From Pseudomonas sp. JQ170C (GTDB taxonomy: Bacteria; Pseudomonadota; Gammaproteobacteria; Pseudomonadales; Pseudomonadaceae), in the NCBI RefSeq assembly GCF_035581345.1, contig NZ_CP141608.1, positions 3,998,501-4,062,500 on the forward strand: a stretch of 64,000 nucleotides of DNA, given 5' to 3'. The notes under the pieces were generated by a model. That model made no database searches. It worked only from the letters and a program-made list of their open reading frames with translations, and was not told the DNA's origin. This document shows positions 17,663 to 20,682 of this stretch, piece after piece (within the stretch, counting starts at the first letter, position 1; every line of letters starts with the position of its first letter). Position numbers and translations under genes: made by a program.

Positions 17663-17885
17663 TACATGCTCCCGGACACCCACAGCACTTACTATGTCTA
17701 TAAACAGGTTCGTTAGTTAGTGTTGTTTTAGCACAGAAGACAGCACCGTCAATGGTCCCGCCCGCGTCAAAAACACCTTTAGTTTGCTACACAGATTGAT
17801 GCAAAAGCGGTGAAAACAGACGGAAACAAGCATTGGCATTTGTGGGAAAAATCAGTAAAGTCCCGAGCGCTACATGACACGCTCA

Positions 17886-17959
17886 CCTGAGGACGACCTC
17901 AGGCTCGAATACTGATCGGGGACGGCCCTGGACTTCCAAGGAAGCAGGCCGTGACCGAT
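17886..17959 (+). ncRNA. Structured leader RNA, riboswitch candidate, upstream of nuoA-like/chaA-like genes
   Basis: Hairpin 1 (17886-17903) is a perfect 7-bp stem CCTGAGG/CCTCAGG closed by loop ACGA. Thirteen bases later hairpin 2 (17917-17930) is CGGGG/CCCTG closed by loop ACGG. Two GG-ACGR-CC hairpins in tandem are the hallmark of mini-ykkC, the guanidine-II riboswitch. Hairpin 2 competes with a longer fold: ATCGG (17915) with CCGAT (17955), CGGCC (17923) with GGCCG (17947) and CTTCC with GGAAG, which would bury the ribosome-binding sequence AAGGAAG (17938-17944). The downstream genes are cation-transport-like, so a cation-sensing class such as the nhaA-I lithium motif is an alternative identity. 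Confidence 0.6.
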
Positions 17960-18049
17960 GTACCCGCACCCCCTCCTGTCCCTCCCCTGTTCCGCTCTCC
18001 TGTGCAGCGCTTTCGGTTCTGTCCGTCAGCCCCGTGCGCCTGTGGCTAG
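17951..18049 (+). CDS. Proline-rich leader ORF, 32 residues
   Basis: GTG 17951 lies six bases after AAGGAAG, and opens a frame reading MTDVPAPPPVPPLFRSPVQR and 12 more residues to TAG at 18047. Seven prolines occur in the first 12 codons, including a PPP run. It begins inside the structured leader and ends 71 bases before the nuoA-like gene. The following DNA is C/T-rich and G-poor, as in Rho loading sites. By analogy with the proline-rich MgtL leader of Salmonella mgtA, it may be a regulatory peptide rather than a functional protein. This is inference; the ORF could also be untranslated. Confidence 0.4.
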   Translation: MTDVPAPPPVPPLFRSPVQRFRFCPSAPCACG

Positions 18050-18120
18050 CCCGTTCCCGCCTGAAGATTTCAATGACTTGAGCAACGCCACGTTGATCCA
18101 TTCACACCGGGGACTGAACA

Positions 18121-18555
18121 ATGACAGACACAGCCACCATCTCTCACAACTGGGCCTTCGGCGTCTTCTTGCTAGGCGTCGTCACGCTTTGCCTGTTGAT
18201 GCTGGGCATTTCCAGATTCCTGGGCGGCAAGGCCTGGGGGCGGAGCAAGAACGAACCCTTCGAGTCGGGGATGCTCCCCGTGGGTACCGCCCGCCTGCGG
18301 CTATCGGCCAAATTTCACCTGGTCGCGATTCTGTTCGTGATTTTTGAAGCCGAGGCACTGTTTCTGTTTGCCTACGCCGTCTCAGTGAGGGAAACAGGCT
18401 GGGCCGGATTCATCGGGGCCGTTATCTTCGCCGGCATCCTGCTGCTCGGGTTGGTTTATGAAGGTGCGATGGGCGCCCTCAACGGGGGCGTAAAAACCAA
18501 GCCCCGGGGCACGCGCAAAGACACCAACGCACCTTCGTGCTCCCAGGGGAACTGA
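18121..18555 (+). CDS. Orphan NuoA-like protein (complex I subunit A paralogue)
   Basis: A 144-residue protein with three membrane segments that closely follows NADH-quinone oxidoreductase subunit [18 protein letters not shown] and [19 protein letters not shown] are the family's landmark sequences. The normal FDIEALFLF acidic pair here reads FEAEALFLF, replacing the aspartate with glutamate. No other nuo genes follow; instead a ChaA-type antiporter starts four bases after its stop. So it is not part of the main nuo operon. It could be a duplicated subunit used in an alternative complex I, or a partner of the antiporter. The C-terminal tail ([16 protein letters not shown]) is unlike ordinary NuoA. 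Confidence 0.85.
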
Positions 18556-18558
18556 CCC

Positions 18559-19743
18559 ATGAACACAGCACCAAGCCACGACACCTTGTACTGCGACGCC
18601 AACAAACGTCCGCTCATTCCCTTATCGACCTGGATGCGCCTGACCGGCGCCTGGCTGGTGGTCGGCCTGTTCATGCTGCTGGGTGCAGAGCTGCTGGGAA
18701 GCACCTTGAACTCGCTGACCTCGACCTGGGTGTTCCTGCTGCTGTTCTTCACGATCCTGATGGCGTCTTTTGGCGTGGTGCACGAAGCCGATCACCTGGC
18801 GCAGCAGCTGGGCGAGCCCTACGGCACACTGATTCTGACGTTGTCGATTGTCTCGATCGAAGTGATCCTGATTGCCTCGGTATTGCTGGGGCCGGGTGAG
18901 TTCCCGACCATTGGCCGGGATTCGATCTTTGCCGTGATGATGATCATCATGAACCTGGTCATCGGGATCTGCCTGATCGCTGGCGCTGCGCGCAACGGCG
19001 AGCAGGCGTTCAATATCCAGGGTGCCAACACCTACATTTCCATGATCGTGCTGCTCACCGCGGTCGCCTTGATACTGCCCAACTACACATCAAGCACCGG
19101 CGAGTTCACCATCACCCAGGCGGTTGGCATTTCGGCCCTGACCCTGGTGCTGTATGGCGCGTTCCTGTGGATGCAGATGCGCAGCCACCGGCGCTTCTTC
19201 GTGCAACCGCCAGCCGGGCAGATGAACATTGCCCAGTTTGAAGCACAGAGCGACACGCCGGGTAGCAACGGCCACAGCTCGCTCGATCGCAAAGAAATCC
19301 TGGTACGTTCCCTGGTGCTGCTCGGGTTGATACTGCCCATTGTATTGCTGGCGCATTACCTGGCCGTGGTGACCGACTACGGCATCGAGGCCGTCGGCGC
19401 CCCCACTGCCGTGGGCGGTGTGTTGATTGCGATCATCGTCTTCACCCCCGAATCCATCACCGCGGTGAAGGCCGCGATCAACAACGAAATGCAACGGGCG
19501 ATCAACCTGTGCCTGGGTGCATTTGTCTCGACCGTCGGCCTCACGGTGCCGGCAGTGCTGGTGATCGGCATGGTCACCAACAAGCAGGTGGTGATGGGGA
19601 TTTCCAACACGGAGATCCTGCTGTTCGTCATCACCGTGGTGCTGACCATGCTGAGCTTCAACAGCCAGAAAACATCACCGATACAGGGCCTCATGCACCT
19701 GGTGGTGTTTGCAGTGTTCGGGCTGGTGCTTTTTTACCCGTGA
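18559..19743 (+). CDS. ChaA-type calcium (sodium, potassium)/proton antiporter
   Basis: A 394-residue inner-membrane protein of the CaCA superfamily with about 11 hydrophobic segments. The two inverted alpha-repeats are visible: GEPYGTLILTLSIVSIEVIL (residues ~92-111) and FTPESITAVKAAINNEMQRA (~296-315), each carrying the ion-binding acidic residue. A short charged loop near residue 230 (SDTPGSNGHSSLDRKE) joins the halves, as in E. coli ChaA. It would export Ca2+, Na+ or K+ in exchange for protons. It follows the NuoA-like gene by three bases, so both share the structured leader upstream. Confidence 0.88.
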   Translation: MNTAPSHDTLYCDANKRPLIPLSTWMRLTGAWLVVGLFMLLGAELLGSTLNSLTSTWVFLLLFFTILMASFGVVHEADHLAQQLGEPYGTLILTLSIVSIEVILIASVLLGPGEFPTIGRDSIFAVMMIIMNLVIGICLIAGAARNGEQAFNIQGANTYISMIVLLTAVALILPNYTSSTGEFTITQAVGISALTLVLYGAFLWMQMRSHRRFFVQPPAGQMNIAQFEAQSDTPGSNGHSSLDRKEILVRSLVLLGLILPIVLLAHYLAVVTDYGIEAVGAPTAVGGVLIAIIVFTPESITAVKAAINNEMQRAINLCLGAFVSTVGLTVPAVLVIGMVTNKQVVMGISNTEILLFVITVVLTMLSFNSQKTSPIQGLMHLVVFAVFGLVLFYP

Positions 19744-19750
19744 CCGTCCG

Positions 19751-19820
19751 TAGGAGCGGGCTTGCCCCGCGATAGCGATCTGGCAGTCACATCGCTATCG
19801 CGGGGCAAGCCCGCGCCTAC
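19751..19820. repeat. Paired REP palindrome
   Basis: TAGGAGCGGGCTTGCCCCGC faces CGCGGGGCAAGCCCGCGCC with a ~30-base centre, starting eight bases after the antiporter stop. Confidence 0.9.
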
Positions 19821-19834
19821 AGACAGTGCAGATC

Positions 19835-20258
19835 AGCAAGAGCGCAGCGAATTGTGCTCTTGATCTTGATCTGGCTTTTGATCCACCGGCCCCGTTAACC
19901 AGAAGGGCCGAACGGAGGTGTCGCGGAGGGGCTAGCGCGCAGCGCCTTCGGCGAAGGCCGAAGATGCGAAGCGTAGCGTTGCTTGCAACGCGTAGCTCGC
20001 AATGCCCCGTAGCGACACCGCAGTGAGGGGACTCGCAGCGAAGCGGAGAGCCCCTGGTGGGGCAAGCCCTTTGCTTACTTTGGGGCGTTTGCCAAAGTAA
20101 GGCGCCGTAAGGGCGCAAAGGTGAATCAGCGTCACCCTGGCCAATGGATAAGACCACCAACACCAACACCAACACCAACACCTCATCGCGAGGCCGGTGA
20201 TGGTACTACCCGATGTGCACGACTCGGGGGCCATCGCGGGGCAAGCCCGCTCCCACAG
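19835..20258. repeat. ~424-bp dispersed repeat, copy 1
   Basis: From AGCAAGAGCGCAGCGAATTG to the half-REP CGCGGGGCAAGCCCGCTCC this stretch is nearly identical to 20271-20682. It contains several hairpins, among them CTTACTTTGG (20074) with CCAAAGTAAG (20092), and a hexamer microsatellite (ACCAAC repeated about four times near 20155). Open frames on the opposite strand that read like VLVLVLVVLSIG come from this microsatellite and are not genes. Confidence 0.9.
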
Positions 20259-20270
20259 CCAGCACAGGCC

Positions 20271-20682
20271 AGCAAGAGCGCAGCGAATTGTGCTCTTGAT
20301 CTTGATCTGGCTTTTGATCCACCGGCCCCGTTAACCAGAAGGGCCGAACGGAGGTGTCGTGGAGGGGCTAGCGCGAAGCGCCTTCGGCGCAGGCCGAAGA
20401 TGCGAAGCGTAGCGTTGCTTGCAACGCGTAGCTCGCAATGCCCCGTAGCGACACCGCAGTGAGGGGACCCGAAGCGCAGCGTAGGGCCCCTGGTGGGGCA
20501 AGCCCTTTGCTTACTTTGGGGCGACTGCCAAAGTAAGGCGCCGTAAGGGCGCAAAGGTGATTCAGCGTCACCTTGGCCAATGGATAAGACCACCAATACC
20601 AACACCCCAAAGCGGGGCCAGTGGTGGTCCTACCCGATGTGCACGACTCGGGGGCCATCGCGGGGCAAGCCCGCTCCTACAG
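20271..20682. repeat. ~412-bp dispersed repeat, copy 2
   Basis: Second copy, 436 bases downstream of the first. It differs by a few substitutions and by loss of part of the ACCAAC microsatellite. Its terminal half-REP (CGCGGGGCAAGCCCGCTCC) overlaps the stop codon of the convergent flavoprotein gene at 20677. Confidence 0.9.

Follow-up and report, generated by a model that had tools for sequence, protein, structure and literature searches.

A predicted guanidine-II riboswitch upstream of a diverged NuoA and a CaCA-family antiporter in Pseudomonas, with orphan AtpB and MrpF genes behind related aptamers

The established targets of guanidine-II riboswitches (Rfam RF01068, mini-ykkC) are SMR exporter and urea-carboxylase genes, both of which are known guanidine genes (PMC12186494), and control at the ribosome start has been proposed for the gdx gene of Escherichia coli (PMC13064478). 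A similar idea, in which a cation-sensing riboswitch stands before genes of the energy machinery, is represented by the Na+-I riboswitch and whole Na+-using ATP synthase complexes (PMC9971707). The locus described here has the aptamer of the first system, including two GG/CC-closed ACGR hairpins and a full-length Rfam match, and follows the idea of the second, but differs from both: the genes behind the aptamer encode a CaCA-family antiporter and a paralogue of NuoA instead of an SMR exporter or carboxylase, a short GTG-initiated upstream ORF and a C-rich leader lie between the aptamer and the first gene, and single variant subunits with guanidinium as the presumed signal take the place of whole complexes and Na+. 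Guanidine-II aptamers are present in 186 of 199 genomes of the genus, and all of the best 30 loci that were read lead either a urea-carboxylase-like gene (26) or a SugE-type SMR gene (4; one of each was scanned); the targets of the present aptamer are new. In the open papers searched we find no description of a CaCA antiporter, NuoA, AtpB or MrpF as guanidine-II targets, although supplementary lists and closed papers may mention them.

The window, by which we mean the whole 64,000-nucleotide stretch of Pseudomonas sp. JQ170C DNA that was analyzed, contains an RF01068 match at 17885-17929 that spans model positions 1-48 of 48 (37.7 bits versus a gathering cut-off of 32; E 6e-4 for 64 kb on both strands). 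No other Rfam family rises above its gathering score in the window, and this is the only RF01068 found in the genome (5.94 Mb, single contig). On the strength of its sequence, the leader element is a guanidine-II riboswitch aptamer, a clear member of the known class, and would be expected to bind guanidinium. A preliminary description of this DNA had reported two hairpins with ACGA and ACGG loops, each closed by GG/CC, separated by 13 bases; both hairpins are present as claimed, and the linker between them is 14 nt. It had also called the genes that follow as NuoA-like and ChaA-type, and these calls are right, with the qualification that both products are diverged, guanidine-associated forms and not the ordinary NuoA and ChaA. 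The features of the locus are as follows.

17833..17861, + strand: candidate sigma-70-like promoter, TTGGCA-17-TAAAGT, about 25 nt before P1 (consensus scan, weak, position only)
17886..17903, + strand: P1 hairpin of the guanidine-II aptamer, CCTGAGG-ACGA-CCTCAGG, loop ACGA closed by GG/CC (Rfam RF01068)
17915..17959, + strand: predicted competing OFF helix, which would disrupt P2 and cover part of both the Shine-Dalgarno sequence and the GTG start region (minimum-free-energy fold)
17918..17929, + strand: P2 hairpin of the guanidine-II aptamer, GGGG-ACGG-CCCT, loop ACGG closed by GG/CC (Rfam RF01068)
17938..17944, + strand: Shine-Dalgarno-like AAGGAAG (from the sequence; identical in four orthologues)
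17951..18049, + strand: short upstream ORF of 32 codons with a GTG start (VTDVPAPPPVPPLFRSPVQRFRFCPSAPCACG); the start GTGACCGAT is conserved
17958..18035, + strand: C-rich, G-poor leader stretch (36 C, 15 G), a possible Rho loading site
18121..18555, + strand: NuoA2, a second, diverged NuoA (complex I subunit A / ND3; PF00507, 1.1e-26)
18559..19743, + strand: ChaA-like CaCA-family antiporter of 394 residues, of a guanidine-II-linked subfamily (PF01699, 9.6e-25)

The reading that we favor, and which we think is probably right though by no means securely so, is that the riboswitch turns on an exporter together with a variant NuoA that replaces the housekeeping subunit when guanidinium rises. 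Such a system would serve a twofold purpose, with guanidinium being exported while a guanidine-sensitive part of the energy machinery is swapped for a tolerant spare, and the same logic would explain why orphan AtpB and MrpF genes are found beside the antiporter, AtpB beside SMR genes, and a lone NuoA in another Pseudomonas. The wider proposal that Proteobacteria use guanidine-switched spare NuoA, AtpB and MrpF subunits to run their energy machines under guanidinium, along with a new exporter fold (CaCA), is more tentative, and we would put its chances at a little below even.

The antiporter belongs to the CaCA superfamily and is CAX-like, as indicated by its Na_Ca_ex domains, its fold and a pair of conserved glutamates. 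Its structural model (40 sequences, mean pLDDT 80) resembles VCX1, CAX1, YfkE and CAX, with a TM score of 0.67-0.71 for VCX1, and residues E101 and E298, which align with the GNAxE-type motifs of VCX1 and with the metal-site glutamates of CAX, are invariant in all 40 sequences. While the fold and the two glutamates are shared with CAX exchangers and with the sodium-potassium/proton antiporter ChaA, the protein scores only 182.6 bits against the curated cut-off of 505 for the ChaA equivalog NF007895, and 73 positions are fixed differently in comparison with 23 of 27 ChaA-proper proteins (four were left out), with acidic residues both lost and gained; examples are I for D at 130, L for E at 334, and F-T for A-A at 295-296. 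From genetic linkage only, we predict that it exports guanidinium in exchange for protons, a job that it would have in common with the SMR exporter Gdx (SugE), whose fold is unrelated to that of the CaCA (VCX1/CAX-like) proteins. Because the CAX glutamate pair is kept, a metal or alkali cation could still be the substrate.

The linkage of this antiporter subfamily to guanidine aptamers extends well beyond the window. A search for close relatives using one genome per species yielded 57 loci, from genera that include Pseudomonas, Variovorax, Acidovorax, Achromobacter, Devosia, Agrobacterium and Aminobacter. Among named organisms, P. vranovensis and two strains listed as P. putida are the nearest to the present locus. 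A guanidine-II aptamer lies upstream of the antiporter gene in 55 of the 57 loci. A covariance model whose training set consisted solely of 18 aptamers from the genus, 14 ahead of carboxylase and four ahead of SMR genes, locates a coding-strand aptamer upstream of the chaA-like gene in 53 of the loci, 50 of them at E<=0.05, and two more are contributed by Rfam (L065, 39.0 bits) and by a hairpin-pair pattern (L105); the same model finds none at E<=0.05 in 27 ChaA-proper loci or in 28 housekeeping nuoA loci. In a separate Rfam scan of 34 of the 57 loci, some of which were picked as weak, the upstream element reached the gathering score in 23 and fell below it in 11. No aptamer was found at L085 or at L118, the latter encoding a short protein of 45% identity. 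L085, from Stenotrophomonas maltophilia strain NEC1, is the sole full-length member of the subfamily in this set without a guanidine-II aptamer. Within the genus the subfamily is rare, with only three of 398 genomes (G000, G089, G292) having a member of at least 75% identity and the other 248 matching genomes containing weaker matches only, at most 39% identical among the matches listed. Plasmid carriage was considered as well, but none of the plasmid records reaches 80% coverage of the locus; the highest coverage is 47%, at 69.6% identity (Aminobacter).

Some of the antiporter loci have additional elements. At L070 (1216-5532, minus strand) a guanidine-I riboswitch (97.7 bits) is divergent from the guanidine-II/antiporter gene and precedes what appears by eye to be an ABC transporter operon, and a second guanidine-II aptamer lies before a carboxylase gene. 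In L067 (5732-5953) and L069 (5748-5966), from Ottowia and Variovorax, small membrane-like ORFs are located between the aptamer and the chaA-like gene; the one that was scanned has no Pfam match.

The retention of the CAX fold and glutamate pair is also what would be expected if the riboswitch were real and the cassette served ion or pH homeostasis. Guanidinium would then drain the proton-motive force or swap with K+, Na+ or Ca2+, and the antiporter and the extra NuoA, AtpB and MrpF would restore cation balance, with neither guanidinium export nor replacement of parts. MrpF/PhaF, AtpB and NuoA are indeed all parts of H+ or cation pathways, and guanidine-II aptamers have been reported beside genes of Ca2+ biology in vertebrates (PMC12335538). 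Such a role does not readily account for a subfamily that is nearly always behind a guanidine aptamer when none of 27 ordinary ChaA loci is, nor for the orphan AtpB genes that occur alone or with an SMR gene and an orphan NuoA that occurs alone, where no alkali-cation antiporter is present. Moreover, no single subunit of complex I, FO or Mrp is known to pump on its own. We consider the homeostasis explanation unlikely, though deserving of attention, and prefer export combined with subunit replacement.

The orphan subunits bear directly on the replacement part of this reading. A lone gene for AtpB, the FO proton-channel subunit, stands behind further guanidine-II aptamers 3′ of chaA in 17 of the 57 loci, all of them rhizobial or from Devosia, and in four loci (rhizobia) an MrpF/PhaF gene is led by a divergent guanidine-II aptamer; neither AtpB nor NuoA2 is nearby in 37. 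When four housekeeping atpB neighborhoods were compared with the 57 loci only atpB itself matched, with nine matching frames overlapping atpB. In the family of the Agrobacterium strain that carries locus L095, AtpB is found behind guanidine-II in six of the 30 loci listed, followed in two by an SMR gene; the other loci among these 30 contain SMR genes (14), the antiporter (two, one being L095 itself), DUF1989/UAAP1-like genes (four, one scanned) and PACE-like genes (four, one scanned). The family of a Variovorax genome (150 genomes, 14 of which have RF01068) yielded no match to the orphan queries within 1.5 kb downstream at any of its 14 loci, and one locus, L236, matched nothing at all.

All eight genomes tested encode two AtpB proteins, one housekeeping and one guanidine-linked, and the essential arginine is kept in all 16. 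Nine columns that are invariant in the housekeeping copies are altered in every guanidine-linked copy among these 16 proteins, including a change of Leu to His three residues before the essential Arg and of Asn to Val four residues after it; we take these sites and the Arg between them to be 207, 214 and 210 respectively in E. coli numbering. The segment SHSVRLFAVM is present in 22 of 22 readable guanidine-linked AtpB proteins (that of L213, cut by a contig end, is left out), which form a single clade (0.989) apart from eight housekeeping copies, and the exact codon pattern for HSVRLFAVM is found in only one of 385 alphaproteobacterial genomes, which is the genome used as the centre. The housekeeping-type AtpB of 5dn6 (presumably from Paracoccus) has a His at this position too, and a His close to the essential Arg was therefore abandoned as a marker of the guanidine-linked form, leaving only the Asn to Val change as diagnostic. 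The MrpF orphans represent the weakest case, as only two invariant columns are altered relative to eight other MrpF copies, in addition to which an acid in the YFE/YVD segment is lost, the segment reading YLP, and they thus lend weak support.

The leaders of the orphan atpB genes are themselves varied. In L095 (7165/7433), L104 (7128/7399) and L106 (7200/7469) one guanidine-II aptamer follows another at a distance of about 270 nt ahead of the gene, with short ORFs in the interval. In the Devosia loci L114 (7204-7374) and L109 (7210-7386) a membrane-like ORF of 57-58 residues, for which no Pfam family is above its cut-off, lies between the aptamer and the orphan atpB.

Changes in otherwise invariant residues could mean that an old role has been lost, and with many of the orphans being encoded beside exporters, these might instead assist an exporter, as accessory subunits or small channels, having given up their place in complex I, FO or Mrp. 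We regard this as improbable, since the orphan AtpB keeps its essential Arg and most of the core, it would be odd for three unrelated subunits to partner one exporter, neither AtpB nor NuoA2 accompanies the antiporter at the majority of its loci, and orphan NuoA can occur with no exporter as its neighbor. Replacement of the housekeeping subunits remains the reading that we prefer.

NuoA2 is 67% identical to the housekeeping NuoA of the same genome over residues 3-126, has a different C-terminal tail, and falls below the curated cut-off of the NCBIfam NuoA model that it matches; unlike nuoA of the complex I genes it is followed by the antiporter gene, at a gap of 3 nt, and not by nuoB. Four genomes here have NuoA2 beside the antiporter, namely that of the window and those of L062, L063 and L064, and in all four proteins the same changes D76E, W85Y, D121N and W122G are found at columns that are invariant in 38 of 38 housekeeping NuoA proteins (its own housekeeping copy is included, and L049 is left out of the residue comparison). 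In the NuoA chain of 3rko (E. coli) the residue aligned with position 76 is D79. In 9tam_A, a complex I chain nearly identical to 3rko, position 79, where the guanidine-linked NuoA has Glu, is Asn. Across six pairs the dN/dS of nuoA2 is 0.09-0.17, reflecting purifying selection and thus a gene that is kept for a function.

Two NuoA matches are present in five of 199 genomes of the genus (G000, G089, G013, G076, G082), and one of these, G013, was chosen as a check from outside the set, having two NuoA and three RF01068 matches. It contains a guanidine-II aptamer (L268 3400-4050, minus strand, G013:C33; 40.8 bits) ahead of a lone NuoA copy of 129 residues that begins 186 nt past the aptamer and is 66% identical to NuoA2; the leader repeats CACTTCCAAGGAAG, and AAGGAAG is likewise present 3′ of the aptamer. 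No antiporter, AtpB, SMR or carboxylase match is found in the 6-kb stretch around it, and the association of NuoA with the switch therefore holds whether or not the antiporter is present. The G013 protein contains FEIEAL, with Glu at site 76, and the remaining three sites are unchanged (W, D and W); D76E is thus found in five of five guanidine-linked NuoA proteins, and an initial definition of the group by four changes was cut to this one.

With NuoA2 accompanying the antiporter in only four genomes here, one might ask whether the antiporter is the only real guanidine-II target, with NuoA2 a hitch-hiking duplicate of housekeeping nuoA. The purifying selection in all six pairs, the identical alteration of four invariant residues in four of four proteins, the pairing of aptamer and NuoA in G013 with no antiporter, and the parallel AtpB and MrpF cases all argue against this, and we give it very little weight.

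The aptamer itself is strongly conserved, with 46 of 46 nucleotides (17885-17930) identical across the four orthologues while the leader 3′ of it diverges. Compensatory changes become apparent in a broader set of 46 aptamers upstream of chaA-like genes (10 near-duplicates having been left out), in which P1 has double changes in six of eight pairs and P2 in two of five, the remaining three pairs being invariant. There are 104 double-change cells compared with 40.2 in shuffles, 89.5% of cells are paired, and the covariation score of 0.457 versus 0.179 for shuffled alignments collapses on sliding; the number of pairs with any double change (eight) is not in excess over shuffles (7.7). A lax Rfam scan of 17700-18200 returned RF01068 and one sub-threshold snoRNA match and nothing else, with nhaA-I absent from the Rfam 15 matches at E<=10, so that neither nhaA-I nor any other Rfam class is above threshold for the leader. 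A guanidine-I riboswitch was not found in this genome or in five relatives. The preliminary description had left a choice between a guanidine-II switch with a new target and another class such as nhaA-I, and it is the former that these data bear out. The outcome that it named as refuting, with no covariance-model hit and no compensatory changes in the stems, did not occur. Chance can produce simple hairpins with short, conserved loops, and the target genes are cation-transport genes, but RF01068 standing alone above threshold, the covariation and the near-universal linkage make a different class or a chance hairpin pair scarcely credible.

The same description had proposed that a longer helix could replace the second hairpin and hide AAGGAAG. 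The helix is present, formed by ATCGG 17915-17919 with CCGAT 17955-17959, CGGCC 17923-17927 with GGCCG 17947-17951, and CTTC 17933-17936 with GAAG 17941-17944, and it is the predicted minimum-free-energy fold at -37.0 kcal/mol (one of 200 shuffles was as stable; z -2.84); forcing P1 and P2 gives -24.9 kcal/mol, i.e. a cost of 12.1 kcal/mol. With small changes it is also the predicted minimum-free-energy fold in L062, L063 and L064, where the corresponding costs are 13.9, 10.0 and 9.6 kcal/mol. As to what it hides, the helix does cover part of the Shine-Dalgarno sequence, but the start that it covers is most likely that of the short upstream ORF (GTG 17951) and not that of the NuoA-like gene, which starts only at 18121. 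With about 190 nt between the aptamer and this start, we reject a switch that acts directly on the Shine-Dalgarno sequence of nuoA2. The GTG start (GTGACCGAT) is conserved in four of four orthologues, with ORF lengths of 31-44 codons and a C-terminus QRFRFCPSxPCACG conserved in three of the four; in L063 the ORF overlaps the nuoA2 start. An alternative start at ATG 17958, giving a 129-aa ORF, is lost in two of the three orthologues (L062 and L063) and was discarded.

These elements suggest a relay that leads from the switch via the upstream ORF and protection from Rho to nuoA2-chaA. With no ligand, the strands of P2 would separate and pair within the 17915-17959 helix, hiding the start of the GTG ORF from the ribosome, and the C-rich leader would be bare and open to Rho, keeping nuoA2-chaA off; guanidinium bound in both ACGR loops would clamp the two hairpins to each other and free the upstream-ORF start, and translation of that ORF would keep the RNA open and be coupled to that of nuoA2 and chaA. 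The C minus G excess of the leader (17958-18035) is in the top 0.15% of 78-nt segments on both strands of the window. The energy model backs this scheme in part, in that when P2 is forced the 15-nt start region opens (0.15 to 0.43), while the accessibility of the Shine-Dalgarno sequence barely shifts (0.43 to 0.45) and that of the GTG codon drops (0.33 to 0.13). The promoter candidate is of a kind expected by chance, the consensus scan finding one where 1.0 would be expected.

What guanidinium would do to the energy machinery is suggested by studies of related compounds. A small cation and arginine mimic, it could build up inside respiring cells and put pressure on carboxylate and arginine sites. 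Guanidinium has been reported to inhibit isolated bovine complex I much like metformin, with an IC50 of 25.8 mM (PMC4148174), a high concentration that counts against the idea, and the same paper cites an earlier report of no inhibition. Biguanides inhibit both complex I and ATP synthase, with binding proposed close to the ND3 loop, ATP synthesis itself being described there as not inhibited by metformin or buformin (PMC4148174). In structures from 2023, biguanides bind mainly within the quinone channel, between ND1 and NDUFS7, at a site close to ND3 but outside it; the loops of ND3, ND1 and NDUFS2 are disordered in the binding states, and the concentration of the biguanide cation by the membrane potential is stressed (PMC7614227). 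We infer that replacement of sensitive by tolerant parts is the simplest common reason for inducing a lone NuoA, AtpB or MrpF along with exporters.

If this is correct, it would be a case of resistance to a metabolite by target replacement under riboswitch control, and the regulon would name the cell targets of guanidine as complex I, the proton channel of ATP synthase and Mrp antiporters. It would further provide a new exporter family and natural guanidine-tolerant variants of NuoA/ND3 and AtpB that are open to direct testing, as well as a link to how complex I and ATP synthase are affected by metformin and other biguanide drugs, and it bears on why bacteria hold several guanidine riboswitch classes and what guanidine harms.

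Two further observations were made along the way. In the family of the L095 genome, PACE-like genes (PF05232, chlorhexidine efflux) are located directly behind guanidine-II aptamers in L204, L209, L217 and L218, the match in the L209 piece being 1.4e-23 and the other three being likened to it by eye, and it is possible that these represent a further family of guanidine exporters. In the window, at 19795-20660, where only a short CACCAA array is called as a tandem repeat, two similar stretches with near-identical ORF translations lie between chaA and the next gene.
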